A stretch of DNA of 37,590 bases from a virus. Both the position numbers and the translations under genes were made by a program. The notes under the pieces were generated by a model. That model did not search any database. It saw only the letters and a program-made list of their open reading frames with translations, and was not told the DNA's origin. The stretch is from the IMG/VR virus record IMGVR_UViG_3300007960_000066, positions 1-37,590 of that record, one strand, 5' to 3'. Below are positions 11,966 to 35,287 of the stretch, one piece after another (the first letter of the stretch is position 1; every line of letters starts with the position of its first letter).

Positions 11966-12532
11966 TTACGAGATCTTGCGAGTCGGAAACTGATTGAAGA
12001 GCTTCCCGAGGCACGAGCAATTGATGATCATCTTCGTCGAGAGCTCGCCCTTGCCGCCGCTCTTAAAGCCGACCGAGAGAGTCGACGTGTTCCAAGGATC
12101 GCGCGTCCCGGAGTAGGTGACGGTCTCGATCTCCTCGCCCTCGAAGTGTTGAGCGACCTTCGCCGTGAGCTTGAAGACGTAGGCCGCGAGCGTCGCGTGA
12201 GACTCCTTCTCGGCGATCTCTTCGATCTTGGCCTCGACGATCGTGATCGGGAGCTTCTCGCAGAGAACGGGATCGCTCATCCGAGAGGTGTAGGACGTGA
12301 TCTCAACCCACTGGCGAGCGAAGGCCTTCTCGGCTTTTTGCTGCTTGTAGTTCCATCCGTTAGTATTGACAGGGAAGGCCTTCTTGAGATCGCCTCCGGC
12401 CTCGTCGATCTTCTCGAAGATCCGAGCGACCGCTGCGGAATAACTGTCCTTGAGCGAGGCCTTGATGGCTTTACGGGTAGGAGTGAGCGCGACCTCGATG
12501 GCCGCCCGGTTGTTGTCGTTGGTGTTTTTCAT
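11966..12532 (-). CDS. Hypothetical protein, 188 residues, own promoter and terminator
   Basis: A mixed helix/strand protein (MKNTNDNNRAAIEVALTP) with a long charged helical N-terminal half and a beta-rich C-terminal half (YVFKLTAKVAQHFEGEEIE, TLSVGFKSGGKG). No family, membrane segment or catalytic motif was recognised. The ATG at 12532 lies seven bases from the P2 -10 box and lacks a Shine-Dalgarno sequence, so it is leaderless-type. With P2 upstream and T1 downstream it forms a single-gene unit, typical of accessory genes added between phage operons. Confidence 0.65.
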   Translation of the reverse strand: MKNTNDNNRAAIEVALTPTRKAIKASLKDSYSAAVARIFEKIDEAGGDLKKAFPVNTNGWNYKQQKAEKAFARQWVEITSYTSRMSDPVLCEKLPITIVEAKIEEIAEKESHATLAAYVFKLTAKVAQHFEGEEIETVTYSGTRDPWNTSTLSVGFKSGGKGELSTKMIINCSCLGKLFNQFPTRKIS

Positions 12533-12539
12533 TGATGTG

Positions 12540-12568
12540 AACTTATGCTCAAGGCCTTGAGAACGCAA
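12540..12568 (-). promoter_or_regulatory. Promoter P2 with CTCAAGGCCTTGAG operator
   Basis: TTGCGT (12563-12568), 17-base spacer and TAAGTT (12540-12545) on the minus strand, with the palindrome at 12548-12561. The ATG follows seven bases after the -10 box. P1 and P2 are the same from the terminator through the start codon. Confidence 0.7.
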
Positions 12569-12617: not shown

Positions 12618-13157
12618 CTATCGACGGTAGACGTCGATCCCCCAGTAGTCGACGATATCTGCGTTCTCGTATCGCTCGGCGAGCGGGAGGCTTCGATCGA
12701 GGAACGCGCGCCCCTTGCCGCTGAGGTGGAGCTTGATCGCTTGAGGGAACTCGAGGAAGAGCGCGCGAAGCTCGCGCAGCGTCGGGCATCCGTATGAGTA
12801 GGTCGTTGCGTCCTCGATCCGCTCGCCGTTTTTATCAATAGCCAAGATCTGTATTTCCTTGTCAACGTAGTCGATGTCTTCGTCCTTTCTAAGTTCGTCC
12901 TTCGCCCTGCGGACGCAGGTCGAGATCTCGGAAGCCTTGGACGTCTCGACGTTGAGGCGAGAGCGTCGAGTCACCTCGAGGAAGCCTCTCCAGTGTCCGA
13001 GGAGTCGCTCCTCGCTCGTGATCGAGGGATCGGCCGAGATCGAGTGTGCGTTGTTGTCGAGGTCGTTTGAGAAGACGTAGCGATCGCCGCGAAGCTCGCA
13101 CTTGCAGTCGCCGTCGACGAGGAGGATTTTCGTTTGCGTGTCGTTGTTTGCTTTCAT
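12618..13157 (-). CDS. Hypothetical protein, 179 residues, two in-frame starts
   Basis: A protein of no recognised family (MKANNDTQTKILLVDGDCKC), with beta-rich N-terminal segments, a central basic helical part (CVRRAKDELRKDEDIDYVD) and a C-terminal helix before YENADIVDYWGIDVYRR. The ATG at 13157 is preferred because AAGGAACC precedes it. A second in-frame ATG at 13199, next to the P3 -10 box, would add a 14-residue asparagine-rich extension by leaderless translation. P3 upstream and T2 downstream isolate the gene as a single-gene unit. Confidence 0.65.
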   Translation of the reverse strand: MKANNDTQTKILLVDGDCKCELRGDRYVFSNDLDNNAHSISADPSITSEERLLGHWRGFLEVTRRSRLNVETSKASEISTCVRRAKDELRKDEDIDYVDKEIQILAIDKNGERIEDATTYSYGCPTLRELRALFLEFPQAIKLHLSGKGRAFLDRSLPLAERYENADIVDYWGIDVYRR

Positions 13158-13206
13158 TGCTTTGGTTCCTTGCTCGTTGTTGTTGTTGTTCGCTTTCATT
13201 GATGCG

Positions 13207-13235
13207 AACTTATGCTCAAGGCCTTGAGAACGCAA
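13207..13235 (-). promoter_or_regulatory. Promoter P3 with CTCAAGGCCTTGAG operator
   Basis: TTGCGT (13230-13235), 17-base spacer and TAAGTT (13207-13212) on the minus strand, with the perfect palindrome at 13215-13228. A leaderless-type ATG lies at 13199. It differs from P1 and P2 by one base between the -10 box and the ATG. Confidence 0.7.
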
Positions 13236-22447: not shown

Positions 22448-23419
22448 TCAGATGATCGACGTATCGGTGTTGCGGAGAACGGCCGTGATCTCGTCGTTGT
22501 CCGCAGTCGTGCAGAACGCGCGGAAGTCGACCGGGAGCATGAGCGGGCCGCCATCCTTCATCCCGATGTCGGGCGGACCTTCGAGGTAACACTGCGACAT
22601 CGTAATCGCGAGATTGTAGGTGTAGCCCGACTCGATCGCATTGGCCGGAGCCGCCCAAGTCGCGACGATCGGAACCTCGGTGAGATCCCGGAAGAGATCG
22701 TATTCCGTCACGTCGTCGAATTCGATCAGCATCGAGCCCGAGACTTCGCGCGGACCTGATCCGCGACCGATGCCGGGACGAAGCCTCGATCCGAGATTGC
22801 CGCGATCCGTTGCGAGGTTGTTTGCGATCGTGACCTCGAACTCCTTCACGTTCTGCGCGACCGAGTTGACCTGAACAGTCAACATCGAGTAGTCGATCTG
22901 GTAGAGCGTCGCGAAGGACTCGGTCGCCTCGCTCTGCTTCGTCTCCTCCTCGCCTTGGAAGGCGACCTCGACTTCGAGCGGAGCCTCGTTGGATTGCCGG
23001 AGAGTCAAGCTCTCGATCTGACATCCTTCGTAGTCGTAAGCCGTCCCGATGTTCGCCGCGTCGCGGGAGCATTGGATCGAGAGCCCGACCGGGAGATCCG
23101 AGTCCGGATTGATCGTGTGATCATAGGCCGACGAGGCGTCCACTTGAGCGGAGCTCGCGTCGCCGATCGCGTCGTTGAGGAGGACGCCGATCATCCCGTT
23201 GAATCCCGCGTAGAACTTGAAGCCTCCGTCGACGAAGCGACGCGACGCAACGCTCCGGTATTGCCCGGCCGTCCCGAGGGAAGGCAAGGGGAGTTGCGAC
23301 TGGTTGAGCTTCATCGATTCCTCGATCGGTCGCTCGAAGACCGTCGGAGCGACGCGCGTCCCCCATGTGGTCTCCCGGCCGACGCCGATCCATCCTTTAT
23401 GTCCGTATCCTTGAGCCAT
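22448..23419 (-). CDS. Major tail tube protein
   Basis: A 323-residue protein beginning MAQGYGHKGWIGVGRETTWGTRVAPT, the typical start of phage tail tube proteins, in which the N-terminal arm precedes a beta-barrel. Later strands include FVDGGFKFYAGFNGMIGVLL, CQIESLTLRQSNEAPLEVEVAFQG and VSGSMLIEFDDVTEYDLFRDL. It polymerises around the tape measure protein to form the tail tube. It lies between a small tail-associated gene and the assembly chaperone, the usual order. Confidence 0.8.
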   Translation of the reverse strand: MAQGYGHKGWIGVGRETTWGTRVAPTVFERPIEESMKLNQSQLPLPSLGTAGQYRSVASRRFVDGGFKFYAGFNGMIGVLLNDAIGDASSAQVDASSAYDHTINPDSDLPVGLSIQCSRDAANIGTAYDYEGCQIESLTLRQSNEAPLEVEVAFQGEEETKQSEATESFATLYQIDYSMLTVQVNSVAQNVKEFEVTIANNLATDRGNLGSRLRPGIGRGSGPREVSGSMLIEFDDVTEYDLFRDLTEVPIVATWAAPANAIESGYTYNLAITMSQCYLEGPPDIGMKDGGPLMLPVDFRAFCTTADNDEITAVLRNTDTSII

Positions 23420-24609: not shown

Positions 24610-25587
24610 TCAGGAGTAGCTGGTCGTGATCAAGGTTCCGGCCGCGCCGTCGATGATCTTCTCGGCCGTGTTCTGGCGGACGCGGACGATGTCAGACCGT
24701 TTCGATTCTTCGCGGTAGGTCTCCGTCACGTAGAGACCGCCTTCCTTGTTCCAGACCAAAGTCCGCCCGGCGCCCTGATTGGCGAAGTCACCTCCGGCGA
24801 CCTTGCCGACCCAGATATAGGTATTCCCCCAGATCGAGGTTGCCGAATAGGTCTGTCCCTTCTTGGCGCTGTTCTTGACCGCGCGGCCGACGAGGACTTG
24901 CTCGATCCCGGACTCGGCGAAGGCGGACGCGACCGCGTTCGGCGTGACGTTCATCGTCGAGCTCGCGTCGCCCAGATTGCCGCGAAGGAAGTTCTGGGTG
25001 AGCGTGGCGCGCCTGACCCGTTGCCAGACGTTGCTCGACATAACGATCGTGTTCGGGCTCTCGGCGTTGTTGTTCAACCGCTCGACGGCGTCGAAGACGT
25101 CCTTGACGAAGTTGATCGTCGCGATGTTCGCCTCGGTGTAGTTGACCGCCGCCGCCGTCCCGCTTCCGAAGTTGGTCGTCGCATTCGAGCCGGTGATCTC
25201 GGCCGCGACGCGGATCTCGTGTCCGAGAGCGACCTGATTCATCACGTGCTTCGCGGCCGTAACCTCGGCCGAGAAGTAGCGCGCGACGTTCTTCTTGTAG
25301 GTGTCGTCGACCTCCTCTTCGAGACCACGATCGACGCAGTCGAAGGTATCGTTCTCGTAGGTCCGACGGACGCGACCATAGGAGCCGCCCGGCGTCCGCT
25401 CGGTCACGTCGTCATTGATGAGCTCGCCCTTGCCCTTCTTGAAGACGGGATATTGGCCGGTCTGCTCGTCGACCTCAAACGGAGGCATGACGCGCGCCCC
25501 GATCAAATTCGAGGCCGCCTCGGATGCCTCTTCGACGAGGACGTTGATGTCTGCCCGGAGGACTGCTGCGGAATCGGATTGTGCCAT
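24610..25587 (-). CDS. Major capsid protein
   Basis: A 325-residue protein following the protease, scaffold and decoration genes, the usual place for the major capsid gene. The N-terminal arm (AQSDSAAVLRADINVLVEEA) is followed by NLIGARVMPPFEVDEQTGQYPVFKK, a segment with the features of an extended loop, and a helical spine (EEEVDDTYKKNVARYFSAEVTAAKHVMNQ). The C-terminal half has SPNTIVMSSNVWQRVRR and GNTYIWVGKVAGGDF, consistent with an HK97-fold capsid protein. No Shine-Dalgarno sequence precedes the ATG although the product must be abundant. Confidence 0.85.
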   Translation of the reverse strand: MAQSDSAAVLRADINVLVEEASEAASNLIGARVMPPFEVDEQTGQYPVFKKGKGELINDDVTERTPGGSYGRVRRTYENDTFDCVDRGLEEEVDDTYKKNVARYFSAEVTAAKHVMNQVALGHEIRVAAEITGSNATTNFGSGTAAAVNYTEANIATINFVKDVFDAVERLNNNAESPNTIVMSSNVWQRVRRATLTQNFLRGNLGDASSTMNVTPNAVASAFAESGIEQVLVGRAVKNSAKKGQTYSATSIWGNTYIWVGKVAGGDFANQGAGRTLVWNKEGGLYVTETYREESKRSDIVRVRQNTAEKIIDGAAGTLITTSYS

Positions 25588-27307: not shown

Positions 27308-27532
27308 TCAACCACCTCCTTTCGATCGCGGTTTCCAGTTGCCAATAAAGCTGTCGATGTGAGTCAACCATCCCTCAATCTCTCGTGCATACGTCGGTCG
27401 GCCTCCCTTGATCCGCTTGCCGATCGCTTGCTCGTGCAATTCGACGATGCTCGAAAGAGCCTCCCGCATCCTGTCGAGGTTCGCGGCCACCTGACGACGT
27501 CGCGCCTCTTCGATTGTGATTTCGTTTTGCAT
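27308..27532 (-). CDS. Hypothetical helical protein behind promoter P4
   Basis: A 74-residue protein from the ATG at 27532, preceded by AAGGAAC. It is mostly helical (ITIEEARRRQVAANLDRMREALSSIVEL) with a glycine/lysine-rich tail. An alternative in-frame ATG at 27577, seven bases from the P4 -10 box, would add a 15-residue asparagine-rich N-terminus, as in the gene behind P3. No family recognised. It shares its transcript with the zinc-ribbon gene. Confidence 0.6.
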   Translation of the reverse strand: MQNEITIEEARRRQVAANLDRMREALSSIVELHEQAIGKRIKGGRPTYAREIEGWLTHIDSFIGNWKPRSKGGG

Positions 27533-27584
27533 TTTGCTAGTTCCTTTCTCGTTGTTGTTGGTGTTGCTCGCTGTCATTGAGGAG

Positions 27585-27613
27585 AATTTAAAGCCAAGGC
27601 CTTGAGCATTCAA
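27585..27613 (-). promoter_or_regulatory. Promoter P4 with CAAGGCCTTG core
   Basis: TTGAAT (27608-27613), 17-base spacer and TAAATT (27585-27590) on the minus strand. The spacer carries the ten-base palindrome core CAAGGCCTTG (27595-27604) but not the outer bases of the P1-P3 operator. A leaderless-type ATG lies at 27577. An A/T-rich stretch upstream may serve as an UP element. It restarts transcription inside the head operon. Confidence 0.65.
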
Positions 27614-27655: not shown

Positions 27656-29494
27656 TTAGGCCTCCTCGCCCTCGACGAGAGAAAGGATGTAGACGAGCGC
27701 GACATCTTGAGACTTCGCCGGCTTGCCGGGACGCTTCTCTCTCTGCTCCTCGCCGACCGCGTAGAGCTTGCCGGGTCGAGCCTTGGCGGCCGCGAGACTC
27801 AAGACCTCGACCGCGTCGACGCGCGCCGTGATCTCGCCGAGTTGAATCCGGAGATCCTGTCCCTTGAGATCGATCCGCTTGTCCTTCGCGCCGAGGACCG
27901 GCTTCGTCGGGCCGTGAATGTGAGCGGCTCCTTGTGCCGGAGCTCCGATCGAGGCGACGTTCCAGAGAAGGCTCAAGTCCTGCCCGACCGCCTTCCGGAC
28001 ATCCCACTGAAGCCCCAGATCGACCGGAGCGTTCATGCTGACGTAGACGTTCCAGATCAATTGAGTCGACGCCGTCGCGAGCGTGTTCACGTTCCAGATC
28101 AATTGAGTCACGGCCGCCGCGAGAGCCTTCACGTTCCAGACCATTTGGAGCGTCTGAGCCGCGACCGCATAAGTCACGTCAAGGACGGCCTCACTCGTCC
28201 CCGTATGCTCGAAGGCCTCGACCGAGATCCACTGCGACGAAGAGAGCCCTCCGGTCCCCGGCTCGATCCCGAATCTCATGTCGTTATTCTGAGCCCATCC
28301 CGATCGATTCAAGATCGCTTGAACGGCCGTCGTTAGAGCCGCCGTATGAGGGCCGACCGGAGAGCCGAACGAAGTCACGACATTGAGCGAGACCTGTCCG
28401 ACCTTCGAGATTTGCGTCGGCCGATTGCTTGTTGACCAAGCTGCTGCGTCGTCGACATCGTCGGCCGCGACCTTGAGATCCCATGCTCCCCCCGTCTGAG
28501 GGCCGGCGCCCTGATTCGTGAGCGTGAGCTTCGCCGTCGAGATCGTCGCTCCGGTAGGGATGCCTACGCTCTGAAAACGGAAGCCTCCGGCGTATTGCAA
28601 AGCCGCGAAAGTTGTAAACGTGCCGTAAGTAGTCCTGTAACTCACTATTGTAAGTGGACCGTACCCGAGCTTGATCTTCGTCCCCCCGGTCGAGATCGTG
28701 TTCTGAAGCATCGACTCTTGAACATCGTCGCCTCCTGCGGAGATCTCCTCCGAGACCGAGGCGTCGATCGTGACGGGATAAGACGTCTCCTTCTTCAGCC
28801 GTCGGACTCGCTTCTCGTCCGGGACGGCCGCGCGGCCGGTGTAGGTCTCCGTCAATCTGAAGACCGTCTCCCCGGTCGCCTCGTCGAAGAACTCCTCCGT
28901 CTCGTTCACGATCTCGACTGTCCGACGGACAAAGCCCTTCCGGTCCTTCGTCACGGGGCGATTGATCTTCTCCCGATCCCATCCCTTCGTCTTCTTCTGA
29001 AGTCGGACATTCGGGATCTTTCCTCGCCATCGATATTCCCAAGTAAACGACCGAGGAGCTCGATCGCCTCGAAGGATCTTGAAGAATTCAGCGCCACTCG
29101 GAAAGAATCGGAGCTCGATGTCGAGCTCGGGAAGGAGGTCGTTCCAGATCACGCGGTTCGCGTCACTCTCCGGCTTCACGTTGAGCTTATGCTCCGAGAG
29201 AGGTCTCCCTTCAATCGCGACGAGAAGAGCGCGCACAAGACCGCCTCGACGCGACTCATAAGTGAAGGCGACTTGATCAGCCGAGACGCGAGCGATGTAT
29301 TCCGCGCGCTCGACTTCGAGCTTCTCGTCGACGTTGAGATCGACATCCTTCCACTCCCGAGCCTCGTCGAGATAGTGGATCGCCCGAGCGGACGCGCGAC
29401 ACAAGAAGCTCCCGTCGGGAAGCCTGAAGTGTTTTGCGTTTCGGGATCGCTTAGAAACGATCTCCTTCGCGTCCTTGGGAATCGCCGGGATCAT
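27656..29494 (-). CDS. Large virion protein with WNV repeats
   Basis: A 612-residue protein from the ATG at 29494, overlapping the previous gene by ATGA. The N-terminus (FRLPDGSFLCRASARAIHYLDEAREWKDVDL) and the middle (TISTAKLTLTNQGAG, WDLKVAADDVDDAAAWSTS, SWISVEAFEH-like) resemble DNRLRE-type surface proteins. From about 455 there are at least four short repeats of the form LxWNVxxLAxAxTQ, typical of some phage structural proteins. It probably forms a head or neck appendage. Its location in the head block away from the tail genes is unusual for a fibre. Confidence 0.6.
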   Translation of the reverse strand: MIPAIPKDAKEIVSKRSRNAKHFRLPDGSFLCRASARAIHYLDEAREWKDVDLNVDEKLEVERAEYIARVSADQVAFTYESRRGGLVRALLVAIEGRPLSEHKLNVKPESDANRVIWNDLLPELDIELRFFPSGAEFFKILRGDRAPRSFTWEYRWRGKIPNVRLQKKTKGWDREKINRPVTKDRKGFVRRTVEIVNETEEFFDEATGETVFRLTETYTGRAAVPDEKRVRRLKKETSYPVTIDASVSEEISAGGDDVQESMLQNTISTGGTKIKLGYGPLTIVSYRTTYGTFTTFAALQYAGGFRFQSVGIPTGATISTAKLTLTNQGAGPQTGGAWDLKVAADDVDDAAAWSTSNRPTQISKVGQVSLNVVTSFGSPVGPHTAALTTAVQAILNRSGWAQNNDMRFGIEPGTGGLSSSQWISVEAFEHTGTSEAVLDVTYAVAAQTLQMVWNVKALAAAVTQLIWNVNTLATASTQLIWNVYVSMNAPVDLGLQWDVRKAVGQDLSLLWNVASIGAPAQGAAHIHGPTKPVLGAKDKRIDLKGQDLRIQLGEITARVDAVEVLSLAAAKARPGKLYAVGEEQREKRPGKPAKSQDVALVYILSLVEGEEA

Positions 29495-30072
29495 AAGCCG
29501 GGAACGAGCTCCTCCTTCTTGAAGCGACAGAGATCCGGATTCACGATCCGCGCGGCCTTGCCCGGATCGATCGGCCATCCCTTCGCCGCAAGAAGCGAGA
29601 AGGCCGAGATCGGAGACAAGACGACGTCGCGATAGTTGAGGACCGCGAGCTCGACGTCCCTCCGGTTCTTCATCTGCGAGATCCACCATCCCGCCGCCTT
29701 CCAGTAGCTATCGGCCGAGAACGGCTCGCCGCTGATCAAGGGACAAGTCTTCGAGAAGAAAGCCTCGTAGCTCTGGCGGATCTCCTCCGGATCTCGGAGC
29801 ATGATCACAATCCGGTAGCCGTGAACGGGGAGCCGGCCGAGAGCTCCGAAGAGTCCCTTGATCAACTTCCCCTTAAACGGAAGCGGGAAGTCCGGTCGCC
29901 GGTAGGTCTCGGAGTCAAGCTCGTAGAAGCCGCCCTCATTAGGGCGATAGGACTCGTCCCCCCATTGATCATTCATCTCGTCGCGAGCCGGATCGAATTC
30001 GAGATCCATCCCCCCGGCTCCGAGCGCCTTCATCATCATCGAGGTTCCGGATCGCATAAATCCGGAGACCAT
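29491..30072 (-). CDS. P-loop sulfotransferase-like protein
   Basis: A 193-residue protein read from the ATG at 30072. MVSGFMRSGTSMMMKALGAGGMD gives the phosphosulfate-binding loop of sulfotransferases (residues 4-11), and GYRIVIMLRDPEEIRQSYEAFF (about 85-106) matches the second cofactor motif (RDP with a serine eight residues later). It could transfer a sulfate or phosphate-type group, or bind a nucleotide. A longer frame to 30219 exists but the extension lacks protein character and overlaps the upstream gene by 131 bases. The start is uncertain because the first strand is short and no Shine-Dalgarno sequence is near. Confidence 0.6.
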   Translation of the reverse strand: MVSGFMRSGTSMMMKALGAGGMDLEFDPARDEMNDQWGDESYRPNEGGFYELDSETYRRPDFPLPFKGKLIKGLFGALGRLPVHGYRIVIMLRDPEEIRQSYEAFFSKTCPLISGEPFSADSYWKAAGWWISQMKNRRDVELAVLNYRDVVLSPISAFSLLAAKGWPIDPGKAARIVNPDLCRFKKEELVPGL

Positions 30073-30088: not shown

Positions 30089-30631
30089 TCAAGCTCCCGT
30101 GTCGCCCTCGAAAGTGAGCGTCGCTCCGTCGTTGTTTGCGGCTCCGCTGTTGGTCGAGTCCCTTCGGACCCAGACTGCCCGGCATTGCCCCGCTGGTATG
30201 TCTCCAAGGCTGATTCCATTTGCTTTTACAGTAGGTGAGGAAAAGGAGACGCCGACCGGGGCGGTCTCCTCGTCTGCGACTTCCAAGGCTTGCGCGCTCG
30301 CCGATCCGATCGCGCTCGCCGCCGTTGTATCGACGCCGATGGCAGTATCCGCGCCACCCGAGACTTCGGCCGAGATCCAAACCTTCGGCCCCTGCCAAGT
30401 GAGAGTTGCGTGTGAGTTGTGAACGAAAATGCAACGATAGCGGCTCTCGCTCGCCGCGTTCTCGTCGCCCGTCACGGCCGCGAAGAGATTGTGAAGCGTC
30501 GCGTCGGTGACTTCGGTCGTCGAGATGTACTTCCCGAGTGACTCGTTCACGTCGGATTGAGCTTGAGAGTTCCCCGCGCTCCCGGTCTTGATCGAGAGCT
30601 TTACCTTGATGTCGGAGTCAGCGATCGGCAT
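30089..30631 (-). CDS. Virion-associated protein of unknown function
   Basis: A 180-residue beta-rich protein: MPIADSDIKVKLSIKTG, then SRYRCIFVHNSHATLTWQGPKVWI and a C-terminal AGQCRAVWVRRDSTNSGAANNDGATLTFEGDTGA. This pattern occurs in uncharacterised structural proteins of tailed phages. It follows the portal block and lies next to the FTARG-type protein. No catalytic residues or membrane segments are visible. Confidence 0.55.
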   Translation of the reverse strand: MPIADSDIKVKLSIKTGSAGNSQAQSDVNESLGKYISTTEVTDATLHNLFAAVTGDENAASESRYRCIFVHNSHATLTWQGPKVWISAEVSGGADTAIGVDTTAASAIGSASAQALEVADEETAPVGVSFSSPTVKANGISLGDIPAGQCRAVWVRRDSTNSGAANNDGATLTFEGDTGA

Positions 30632-30634
30632 GGC

Positions 30635-31060
30635 TTAAAAAAGTTTGATAATGGCAGTCTTCGCGTTAGCGGCCGGAACGGCGAGAGTGAAGTTCCCCCG
30701 GTTTGAGACGACGTCGTAGCCGAAATTGATCACGCAGATCGCCGGCCGTCCGGGGAGAGAATCGTTGTAGATCATGCAACCGCGAGCCGTGATCGTCGCC
30801 GTCGGCCAGACGATGTTGAGGAACGACATAAAGGCCGTGTCGCCATCGAGGCCGAAGGAGAGCCCGAGGAGAGCCTTCCCTCCCGGAGTGTAGCCGACGC
30901 CTTGAACCTCTTGAGCCGCGATCTCTGGCCGGAAGCCCGGAGTGTTTTTGTCGATGCTCGCCCCGGCCGGGAAAAGCGCGCACTTGAAGATGTGCGTCTC
31001 CCGGTGAACTCCCCGGAGGAACTCGACCTTCGCCGTGTTGCAGATCCCGCTTCGGATCAT
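30635..31060 (-). CDS. Conserved phage protein of unknown function (ITARG type)
   Basis: A 141-residue protein whose core, VQGVGYTPGGKALLGLSFG, then ATITARGCMIYNDSLPGRPAICVINFGYDV and RGNFTLAVPAANAKTAIIKLF, matches a widespread small phage protein family, usually structural. The ATG overlaps the portal stop by ATGA. It may be a minor head or neck component. Confidence 0.6.
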   Translation of the reverse strand: MIRSGICNTAKVEFLRGVHRETHIFKCALFPAGASIDKNTPGFRPEIAAQEVQGVGYTPGGKALLGLSFGLDGDTAFMSFLNIVWPTATITARGCMIYNDSLPGRPAICVINFGYDVVSNRGNFTLAVPAANAKTAIIKLF

Positions 31061-32856
31061 CGCTGAACCTCCAAGAGATCATTCCCGTCGATACGGACGC
31101 GGCTTCCCTTTTCGAGCTTGACCGATCGCTTGCTCTCGCCTCCCTCGGTCTCCTCGATGATGTCCGCCCCGACGACCTTCGATCCACGATGCTTGAGCTC
31201 GATCCGCTTCCGAACCTTCTTCTTCGGCTCGGCCTCCTTCCCGAGGTTGAGGTGAATCGGAGCCGTCCGGACGTTGATCGGCTGAAGCGAGGCGTGACCG
31301 TTCCGGCCGTCGTGAAGGTGAATCTCCGAGAAGCCCTTGCCCTTCTTCGCGTCCTTGCCGTCCTCGGCGTCGTCCTCACCTCCGACTTCCGGGGGAGCTT
31401 GCGCGGACTTTACCCGATCGCCTATCAGGTATTGAAGAGGAACGTCGAGCTCCTCGGAGATGTCCATCCAGTCCCGGATCTCCTCGCCGATCGCCCGTCG
31501 CTCGGTGTGTCCGTCGAGGGAGTACTTCGCGAGGACCGTCCCTTGAGACTTGATCGCGGCCTCAACCTCGGCGACATCTGCGGCCGACTCGCGGCCGAGG
31601 TCAATCGAGGCGTGTCGCGGGAATCGCCAGATCCCCTTGAAGATCCGTCGGTGAGATGGCAGATCTCCTCGCGCGATTGCGGCCGTGATCGCAATGTTCT
31701 TGATTTTATCCAGAGCCTTCTCGACGAGGAGATCTTGCCAGAGCTCAAAAGTCCTCCGGGCTTGCTCGGCTTCAAAGCGAGCTCCCGGTCCGCGCGCCTG
31801 AGAGATGTCGAAGACGAAGCCGAAGGGGAGGTTCACGCCCCCAGCATAAAGCCGAATCAGGAGTTGAAGGAATCCTTCCCAAGCCGCGCCCGGCCGCTCG
31901 GTCTTGAATTGCATGATGTTCTCCCCGTTTTCGAGGTAGTTGATCTGACCATAAAGAACCTCCTGAACACGCTTGGCGAGCCCGGTCGTCGTGTCGCCGT
32001 CCTCATACCATTCATTAGATTGAGGGCCGCCCGGAGCTCCGGTGACGACGCCCGTCTGCATCGAGCCCCACTTGACCGCGAGCTTCTCGAATTGAACGAT
32101 CTCTTGAATGTCGACCGCGACATTGATCACGGGAGCGAAAGCCGAGACGCCCCGGTAGCGGTCAAACTGCCCTTGGTTTGCCAAGTGGCAAAAGTTCACG
32201 GCCGGGATCAATTCCGGGGAGTGATACTGACCGAATTCGTCCCGCTGGTAGATCTCGAAGCTCTGCGGAGCGTTTCTTGAATCGAGGTGAATCCCGTGAA
32301 CGTAACCCCTCCGGGGAGTCGTGTCGTGAGGCGATCCGATCCGGTCGCCCTCGATCCCGATCACCTTCGCCTCGCCGTCCTCGTCGATGAAAGGAACGAG
32401 ACCGCAGTCGCCATCCGTAAGCGTCGAGCGAAGCCCGATCTGGACAAGCTTCTGAAGAGAGTGTCGTTGAGTATAGTCCGCCCGTTTGCACCATTCCGGC
32501 CACCATTCGCGAATTGCGTTGTCGGCTCGCTTCGATCCGGTCTTCGGCTCGTAGTTAATCCGGCCGGCGACGTGCGTCTCAAACTTCCCGAGGATCGCGT
32601 TCGCGACTTCGCCGTTCTCGGCCAGATCGCGCGCCTCCTTCATTATCTGAATCCGGTCGCGAGCGTAGGTCGGAGACTCGGAGCCTTGGAGAGAATACGA
32701 GGTCGTGACTCGATCCCGTGAGGGAGTCGCGCCAGCGTAGCGGAAAGCGTGAAGCCTGCGGCGAGCTCCTTCACGTCGAGCGGCGAGACCGGGAGCGAAG
32801 ATCTCGATCGTCCGGTCGATTGCTCTGGCAAAGCGGTTTTTCTCGATTTGATTCAT
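31057..32856 (-). CDS. Portal protein (lambda gpB-type)
   Basis: A 599-residue protein with the lambda-type portal pattern: REWWPEWCKRADYTQRHSLQKLVQIGLRS, VIGIEGDRIGSP, AVNFCHLANQGQFDRYRGVSAFAPVINVAVDIQEI, and a C-terminal helical barrel region. The charged tail after about 470 is acidic/lysine-rich and unusual in length. It forms the dodecameric DNA channel of the head and the platform for terminase. The ATG overlaps the gpW-like stop by ATGA. Confidence 0.9.
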   Translation of the reverse strand: MNQIEKNRFARAIDRTIEIFAPGLAARREGARRRLHAFRYAGATPSRDRVTTSYSLQGSESPTYARDRIQIMKEARDLAENGEVANAILGKFETHVAGRINYEPKTGSKRADNAIREWWPEWCKRADYTQRHSLQKLVQIGLRSTLTDGDCGLVPFIDEDGEAKVIGIEGDRIGSPHDTTPRRGYVHGIHLDSRNAPQSFEIYQRDEFGQYHSPELIPAVNFCHLANQGQFDRYRGVSAFAPVINVAVDIQEIVQFEKLAVKWGSMQTGVVTGAPGGPQSNEWYEDGDTTTGLAKRVQEVLYGQINYLENGENIMQFKTERPGAAWEGFLQLLIRLYAGGVNLPFGFVFDISQARGPGARFEAEQARRTFELWQDLLVEKALDKIKNIAITAAIARGDLPSHRRIFKGIWRFPRHASIDLGRESAADVAEVEAAIKSQGTVLAKYSLDGHTERRAIGEEIRDWMDISEELDVPLQYLIGDRVKSAQAPPEVGGEDDAEDGKDAKKGKGFSEIHLHDGRNGHASLQPINVRTAPIHLNLGKEAEPKKKVRKRIELKHRGSKVVGADIIEETEGGESKRSVKLEKGSRVRIDGNDLLEVQR

Positions 32857-33128: not shown

Positions 33129-34946
33129 TCATTTCGCCCTCCCGATCAGGAGCCCTCGAATCGCCGCTTGGACAAGGATCATACACTCGCAATCCCGGAG
33201 ATGATCCCCCGCCCGGCCGGTCTTGACCCAGATCCACTCCCGCTTGCCGCGCGGATCGATCTTGATCCTCCTTTGCTCGCCGTTCATCTGGTTGAGGTAG
33301 ATCTGCCCGACGTTCGCCGGGACTCCCCAATAAAGCCCCATACCTGCGCGAAGGTTGAAGAGAACGTCCTTGATAAAGGGATTCGACCATCGACAGAGCT
33401 TCGCATAGCGGAACTTTCGCTTCCGCTTGAAGTCCTGAACCTTTGAGCTCGACAAGTCCGAGGCCTTCATCCCGAAGAGCGGCTCCCGGTTGACCGGCTC
33501 CGAATATGGCCGCCAGACCTTCTCTCCCTGATCGTCCTTCCATGGGAAGCCTTGAGCCGGATCTCCCTTGAGCGTCCGCCAACCGTAGACACAACAATAC
33601 ATGTACACATCGCTCGCCCACTTGCCCGAATCGATCGCAGTGTATTGAGCCTCGACCTCATTCTCCTCGCGGATCATTTCGAGCTCGGCGTCGGAGTGAG
33701 CCTTTCCCCAAGCAACGAGCCGGGACGTCCCGAACTTCGAGAACGCGCGGACGACCCACCAATAGTGATCGATTTGTTTGTCGATCGCCATGAAGCGAAA
33801 GGACTCTTCGTCCCACTTCGGAGCCTTCCCGTCCTCGCCGAAGACGTAATCCGAGGCCTCGGTCGCTTGAGTGTCGAACCAGTTCACTCCCTCGTCGTCG
33901 GACTCGGCAAGCTTCTTCTGAATAAACTTTTGAAGCGGCTCCCGGTTGCCTTGCTTGTATTCCGGGACGACCTCTTCGACCCATTCCCAGACGATGTCCG
34001 CCCAAGGAATCGCCTCACAAGCGAGCGCGTTCCAGTGAAACGACCGCCGAGCTCGGGGAGCTCCGGGATTCTGTCGGATGTAGCTCCCCGACTCGGCGAG
34101 AATCTTCCGGTTCTTCGGAGTGTCCTCGAAGTCCTCTCCGCATTGTCGACACTGCATCCGGACAGTCTTCGACAATGCGTCGTAATCCCATCGCCCCTCC
34201 GGACAAGTGAGATCGCTCTTCTCGAATTTGATCCCGCCCTTCTCGCGATAGTTGTTGTTGTAAGTCCACTTGTACGGCTGCGAGAATTCACACTTCGGGC
34301 ACGTCCATGAATAATCCTCCATCGAGCCGCCCTTCCAGCGTCGATCAAGCTCGTCCCCGACCATCCCGCCCTGAGAACAGTTGTAGGTCTTCCGCTGCCA
34401 TCCGAAAGCCGTCTGTCGAGCGTTGGCATCCCGGAGAAGAGAGTCAGGCTTCCAGAAGACGATCTCGTCGTTCACTGAGACGCAAACGGATTTTGACTGA
34501 AGGTTGGAGAGGTTGGCTCCCTGCATGATCATCCAGAAAACTTGAGCGACGATCTCCTGAGTCACTCGCTTGAGCTTCCCCTTGTGGCCTTCCGGGAGGA
34601 TCGAGAAGACCGGATCGCAATTGTTCAAGAGTTCATTGATCCGGAGCTCCGTGTGATCCTTAGCGTCGTCGTCGGTCTGCATATTCCAGAAGGTAGGCGC
34701 CGGAGCGTTTCTGATCCGGTAGGCGCCGGCCCATATATCCGCGACGAGAGAGCCTCCCGTCTGCGTTGCCTTCATTAGCGTCACCTCTTGAACCTCGGGA
34801 TCTTCCAAGGCTTCCCACGGCCCGAGGAGATAGCGCGAAGTCCCGATCCGGAAGGCTCCGGGGGAAGCGTAGGCCGACGGGAGGACGACGTTCCTCTCCG
34901 CGTATTCCGCGACGCTCAACCTCTCAAGTGGTTCGATTCCCTTCAT
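33129..34946 (-). CDS. Terminase large subunit (gpA-type)
   Basis: A 605-residue packaging motor and nuclease of the lambda gpA group, read from the ATG at 34946 because it overlaps the preceding stop as ATGA; a GTG at 34952 is the alternative. KATQTGGS (59-66) is Walker A, SVNDEI near 157-162 is Walker B-like, and a zinc-type pair CPKC (216-219) with CRQC (266-269) follows. The nuclease domain shows FMAIDKQ (aspartate 389), YTAIDSG (aspartate 439) and HLRDCEC near the end. It cuts cos and drives DNA into the head. Confidence 0.93.
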   Translation of the reverse strand: MKGIEPLERLSVAEYAERNVVLPSAYASPGAFRIGTSRYLLGPWEALEDPEVQEVTLMKATQTGGSLVADIWAGAYRIRNAPAPTFWNMQTDDDAKDHTELRINELLNNCDPVFSILPEGHKGKLKRVTQEIVAQVFWMIMQGANLSNLQSKSVCVSVNDEIVFWKPDSLLRDANARQTAFGWQRKTYNCSQGGMVGDELDRRWKGGSMEDYSWTCPKCEFSQPYKWTYNNNYREKGGIKFEKSDLTCPEGRWDYDALSKTVRMQCRQCGEDFEDTPKNRKILAESGSYIRQNPGAPRARRSFHWNALACEAIPWADIVWEWVEEVVPEYKQGNREPLQKFIQKKLAESDDEGVNWFDTQATEASDYVFGEDGKAPKWDEESFRFMAIDKQIDHYWWVVRAFSKFGTSRLVAWGKAHSDAELEMIREENEVEAQYTAIDSGKWASDVYMYCCVYGWRTLKGDPAQGFPWKDDQGEKVWRPYSEPVNREPLFGMKASDLSSSKVQDFKRKRKFRYAKLCRWSNPFIKDVLFNLRAGMGLYWGVPANVGQIYLNQMNGEQRRIKIDPRGKREWIWVKTGRAGDHLRDCECMILVQAAIRGLLIGRAK

Positions 34947-35287
34947 CTCCACTTCAAGCTTTCGTCTTCTTCCTTGAGCGCGCGGAGCCGGATCGAGATG
35001 TATCGCGGGACCTCCTTCGTCTCCGGAGTGAGGTGTCCTCCCTCATTCCAGATCCAATTGAGATACCCGACCGGGACCGAGAACATAGGCTTGCCCTTAT
35101 ACTTCCCGAATGGCATCCGATCAAACTCCCCGAGGTCAATCATCCAGACCGCGACGACCGGGGGGACCGGATGCTCCGCGCATCGCTCGACCGCCCCGGC
35201 CCTCTCGGCGATCCTCCGGTGAGCGCCCTCGTCGATCCACATTCCCGCGCGCTCGCCCCGGAGATATTCGCACTCCTCGCAGATCAT
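34943..35287 (-). CDS. DUF3820-like protein
   Basis: A 114-residue protein starting MICEECEYLRG with a CxxC, then a central proline-rich strand, and the core MPFGKYKGKPMFSVPVGYLNWIWNEGG (about 58-84), which is the DUF3820 signature. Proteins with this core are often small phage-encoded cofactors of nucleases or polymerases. It lies between the thymidylate-synthase-fold and large terminase genes; the latter overlaps its stop by ATGA. Confidence 0.65.
   Translation of the reverse strand: MICEECEYLRGERAGMWIDEGAHRRIAERAGAVERCAEHPVPPVVAVWMIDLGEFDRMPFGKYKGKPMFSVPVGYLNWIWNEGGHLTPETKEVPRYISIRLRALKEEDESLKWR

Follow-up and report, generated by a model that had tools for sequence, protein, structure and literature searches.

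The window, the 37,590-base stretch of virus record IMGVR_UViG_3300007960_000066, carries a block of terminase, head and tail genes (Table 1). One gene in this block, on the minus strand, encodes MVSGFMRSGTSMMMKAL... and ...IVIMLRDPEEIRQSYEAF..., and is assigned here to the sulfotransferase family. As the initial annotation had claimed, it lies inside the head gene block, between the genes for the portal and the major head protein. The product of the gene directly downstream is referred to below as the partner.

Table 1. Features of the sulfotransferase locus in the window (positions in bases from the first letter of the window).
Feature	Position	Strand	Remarks
Terminase	33129-34952		Same block as the sulfotransferase gene
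Portal	31057-32856		Same block
phrog_644 gene	30635-31060	-	Unknown function
phrog_13135 gene	30089-30631	-	Unknown function; upstream gene
Sulfotransferase-family gene	29491-30072	-	Counted from ATG 30072, 193 codons and a stop
5'-PSB / P-loop, SGFMRSGTSMMMKAL	30022-30066	-	Arg12, Thr15, Ser16 (alignment numbering); invariance partly from search seeds
Glu56	29920-29922	-	No other acidic residue is invariant between the PAPS motifs; putative catalytic base
Lys77 (GKLIK)	29857-29859	-	Invariant; aligns with Lys of KTH in cytosolic sulfotransferases
3'-PB motif, MLRDPEEIRQS	29770-29802	-	Arg98...Ser106, spacing R+8
ATGA overlap	29491-29494	-	Partner start codon overlaps sulfotransferase stop codon
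Partner gene	27656-29494	-	612 aa; directly downstream of the sulfotransferase gene
Major head protein	24610-25587		Further downstream in block
Tail tube	22448-23419		Further downstream in block

The start of the sulfotransferase gene had been described as unclear, and this doubt is justified. The in-frame start candidates are ATG 30219, TTG 30207, ATC 30078, and ATG 30072. The first would use the open frame to give a long N-terminal extension, and was assessed from the 132-base overlap with the upstream phrog_13135 gene, as compared between the window and its closest relative (L008). Of the 31 differences in this overlap, 21 fall at third positions when it is read in the phrog_13135 frame, and identity is 37/44 in that frame vs. 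21/43 in the sulfotransferase frame and 19/43 in the unused frame; the body of the sulfotransferase gene is identical to that of L008 at 132 of 193 positions. Because the overlap is conserved in the phrog_13135 frame and not in the sulfotransferase frame, ATG 30219 is unsupported and was rejected. Judged from the sequence, translation probably begins at ATG 30072 or at the rare codon just before it (ATC 30078). Both fit the family, most members of which start shortly before VSG; a start at ATG 30072 removes two residues from the first modelled strand. Elsewhere in the window, three open frames (11969-12568, 12621-13235, and 27311-27613) carry a similar stretch (LRSQGLEHKF(T/A)SMK, LNAQGLGFKFSSM) before their likely start, which suggests a repeated upstream region.

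The window protein alone had no match in the PDB (phmmer), and its match to Pfam Sulfotransfer_3 was below threshold (E 0.012; 17.2 bits vs. a curated cut-off of 27). Because the single-sequence PDB search found nothing, a profile was needed. Six IMG/VR relatives (41-46% identity) gave a starting profile that extended the family to 54 viral loci and 359 stretches of cellular DNA, the best 80 of which formed the cellular set. The PDB matches of a 59-member profile were nearly all sulfotransferases (best E 2e-6); the alignments cover the 5'-PSB, KLIK, and 3'-PB stretches and place R98 and S106 on the 3'-PB of SULT1C3 and SULT4A1. At E ≤ 0.01, Sulfotransfer_3 is matched by 40 of the 59 members (best E 1.1e-14) and Sulfotransfer_1 by 17, including L006 at 22.1 bits (cut-off 22). 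Relative to these Pfam families, the phage proteins form a compact, divergent branch, and the window member falls under the curated cut-off. The initial reading of GFMRSGTS and an LRDP with a spaced serine as marks of a sulfotransferase is supported by the profile search, as well as by the fold match described below.

The motifs are conserved beyond what chance would give: R12, G14, T15, S16, M18, M19, E56, K77, R98, and S106 are invariant in all 59 aligned relatives, partly by construction, because the GTSMMM, KLIK, and MxRD stretches were the seeds of the collection scans. Three additional members (L199, L201, and L203) provide a useful check on this invariance because they were found only via the neighbouring gene; all three retain the Arg, Thr-Ser, Glu, Lys, Arg, and Ser. 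Loss of the P-loop was looked for among the relatives, which keep it, although in L203 it has the variant form RCMTSGMM; L201 has GTSMAM. Sulfotransferases are reported to carry a positively charged residue in their first PAPS motif and a Ser in their second, with a Glu or His in the stretch that separates them (PMC6637879); Arg12, Glu56, and Ser106 fit this rule in 59/59 members.

An AlphaFold model of the window protein (pLDDT 94.3, pTM 0.90) was searched for a fold mismatch with sulfotransferases and instead matched them. Sulfotransferases occupy the top ranks in both Foldseek (Teg12/14, TPST, and StaL, with E about 1e-5 to 1e-4) and VIA-align (TPST1, Z 12.7, rmsd 3.3 over 167 residues; TPST2, Z 12.2; 4gox, Z 12.1; Teg12, Z 11.3). 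From sequence and model, the protein very probably has sulfotransferase chemistry. The initial annotation had also raised nucleotide binding in head assembly; a head-assembly protein of this kind, or a P-loop kinase that merely resembles a sulfotransferase, would account for the P-loop and for the few kinase structures among lower-ranked fold matches. This seems very improbable, given that sulfotransferases come first in both profile and fold searches, that the Arg...Ser of the 3'-PB, typical of sulfotransferases, is invariant, and that relatives occur in tail-fibre as well as head contexts.

Among characterized enzymes, human TPST1 and TPST2 are the best VIA-align fold matches and share the R-SGT loop; they differ in length (about 300 residues vs. 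193 aa for the window protein), and identity in the fold alignments is 15-21%. Their Z scores are tied within 1 with those of other sulfotransferases, so that protein-Tyr specificity is not implied. Because hhalign against human TPST2 (264 residues) aligned the C-terminal half only (probability 51%), Glu56 is unmatched to Glu99 by sequence. The glycopeptide sulfotransferases Teg12, Teg14, and StaL, among the top Foldseek matches, are bacterial enzymes; they act on antibiotic aglycones, share 10-15% identity with the window protein, and are without a virion link. A parallel in gene organization is RaxST, a tyrosylprotein sulfotransferase of Xanthomonas that uses PAPS as donor and shares a gene cluster with its peptide substrate, RaxX (PMC6637879). 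RaxST also has an Arg in the 5'-PSB, a base between the motifs, and a Ser in the 3'-PB (PMC6637879). The Rax system differs in being cellular, in its secretion genes, and in its 60-residue peptide substrate, whereas the window has a phage operon and a large partner of two beta-sandwich domains.

Sulfotransferase and partner genes occur as a pair in about 24 uncultured phages, where they sit in blocks of tail-fibre or head/tail genes. A partner HMM identified the adjacent gene in the window and, as a full-type partner, in 19 further viral contigs; two more contigs had only the DNRLRE domain, and no partner was found in the 80 cellular loci. A search with the partner itself yielded the three further pairs L199, L201, and L203. 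In the common gene order the junctions overlap or touch (ATGA, GTGA, TAATG, TAGTG, and short overlaps), and we therefore infer translational coupling; L018 has the two genes in reverse order. The tree places 20 of the 22 partner-linked enzymes in one group of 25 rows, with moderate support (80/91). About 8 more diverged loci have the partner without an adjacent sulfotransferase, and many distant phages have a sulfotransferase without the partner, near tail or head genes. Since each gene occurs without the other in some phages, neither needs the other everywhere. Upstream of the sulfotransferase gene lies a tail-fibre gene in L012 and L021, a tail-fibre gene followed by an APS kinase gene in L013, and, directly adjacent, a phrog_644 gene in L009 and L025.

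Cultured phages (50,697 records) were searched by tblastn with the window protein, L009, L071, and two partner forms, and contained no member of the sulfotransferase family or partner, except for one weak P-loop match at 25% coverage. The initial description of such genes as rare in phage structural operons is therefore to be qualified: no family member turned up in the cultured-phage collection searched, yet the gene recurs in the structural operons of phages that are uncultured.

The partner is homologous to the neighbour proteins of relatives over about 440 residues (26-30% identity). Its model comprises two beta-sandwich regions predicted with confidence and a tail of low confidence: a mutarotase-like beta-sandwich (residues about 52-250), a DNRLRE/CBM-like jelly roll (about 300-445), and a variable C-terminal tail with TQLIWNV repeats. 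The folds most resemble mutarotase-like domains found in polysaccharide enzymes, and jelly rolls of the TGF-beta-propeptide/CBM-like type, with middling scores that speak for fold type only; the same holds for an uncharacterised siphovirus protein. The C-terminal domain gives weak matches to DNRLRE-domain proteins (NF033679) in L004 and L041. Compared with NF033679 proteins, the partner adds a conserved N-terminal domain of KRTxxSKTF type, and this domain is sulfotransferase-linked in most close loci. Gene context and folds are consistent with an adhesin-like virion protein.

Partner tails range from 7 to >500 residues. In the window, the TQLIWNV repeats are encoded by a 42-base tandem repeat (2.4 copies, 28047-28147), and the L014 tail has many repeats of KSLKY type. 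The first partner alignment was too diverse for scanning, and two subsets were used. No shared Tyr-rich or Ser/Thr-rich acceptor stretch was found across the partners; because several have almost no tail, a Tyr-rich or Ser/Thr-rich tail was rejected as the general acceptor.

APS kinase makes PAPS. Matches to the APS kinase family PF01583 were present in 5 of 39 phage records, all five beside the sulfotransferase or partner gene, and none was found in the window. An HMM for APS kinase, derived from three proteins of phages, matched 16 of the 80 cellular loci (948 kb), each time within 1 kb of the sulfotransferase gene. L003:3033-3848 and L005:5403-6038 each encode a fusion of an APS kinase domain with a HIGH-motif nucleotidyltransferase, the order of the two differing between the loci; in L001:508-1231 they are encoded by adjacent genes. 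The nucleotidyltransferase in these three loci looks NMN-adenylyltransferase-like. By sequence, the fusion and the gene pair are possibly a compact PAPS synthase.

The linkage to APS kinase genes points to catalysis, as do the invariant Arg, Glu, Lys, Arg, and Ser at PAPS-binding and catalytic positions in the 59 members. Both observations argue against the sulfotransferase acting as a dedicated chaperone or assembly factor for the partner, using its nucleotide-binding fold while transferring hardly any sulfate or none. The one-to-one coupling with a fibre-like gene does resemble fibre-chaperone pairs, and L203 keeps the gene pair despite its altered P-loop; even so, we regard such a role as improbable.

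On the homology, fold, conserved active-site pattern, gene pairing, and PAPS-gene linkage found here, we favour, with some reservation, a PAPS-dependent sulfotransferase that forms a modification cassette with the directly downstream gene, the product of which would be the most likely acceptor. PAPS would be bound at its 5'-phosphosulfate by Arg12 and the Gly-Thr-Ser loop, and at its 3'-phosphate by Arg98 and Ser106. Glu56 may act as the base on the acceptor hydroxyl, with Lys77 stabilizing the transition state as sulfate passes to the acceptor. PAPS would be drawn from the host in the window phage, and from the phage APS kinase in some relatives. That a phage transferase modifies a virion component, as first proposed, remains the best reading, and the coupled downstream gene product is the candidate acceptor. 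Because of the gene coupling, and with RaxST and RaxX as a precedent for encoding a sulfotransferase alongside its substrate, the acceptor is taken to be the paired protein or another virion component. The sulfate would most likely be added to the co-translated partner with its carbohydrate-binding folds, on one of its residues or on an attached glycan; the candidate groups are Tyr, Ser/Thr, and a glycan. The added negative charge might tune adsorption or particle stability.

A true PAPS-dependent sulfotransferase could instead act on a host surface glycan (LPS or capsule) or a small molecule, with the neighbour merely co-expressed; the cell would then be changed during infection, such as by blocking superinfection. 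Cellular relatives beside APS kinase genes and unlinked to the partner gene are consistent with such an activity, as are the glycosyltransferase genes near L011, L013, and L020. Where the literature searched mentions viral sulfotransferases, it has so far treated them as metabolic genes only (PMC13079714), which also fits. In >20 phages, the stop codon closely overlaps the start of a structural-like gene; this, and the position in head or tail blocks, points to the virion, and we consider modification of the host or of a small molecule unlikely, if less so than a chaperone role.

Returning to the virion-directed cassette, the recurrence of the two-gene unit suggests that certain phages add sulfate to a component of their own particles. 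A broader proposal is more tentative and may well not hold: that a widespread group of uncultured phages carries a dedicated virion-sulfation cassette, with a compact sulfotransferase for co-translational sulfation of an adhesin-like virion protein, in some cases with the APS kinase-HIGH nucleotidyltransferase fusion as a possible small PAPS synthase. In the open-access literature searched, no report of a phage sulfating its own virion was found, and phrase searches for phage sulfotransferases found no paper. If the proposal is true, sulfation would join glycosylation as a modification of phage particles, with consequences for receptor binding; the unit is small, at two genes, and directly testable by mass spectrometry.

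Two further loci contain additional genes near members of the pair. In L011:2731-3767, two tandem genes with a P-loop-like start (YVVMGAPHSATSF and YIVTGAPHSATSF) lie upstream of the sulfotransferase gene and beside glycosyltransferase-like genes; the first of them has no Pfam match. In L206:3371-3982, a Cys-rich protein (CSKCCHYP...CPFLKKHRC) is encoded directly upstream of a partner gene that lacks a sulfotransferase, and therefore another gene may take the place of the sulfotransferase at this locus.
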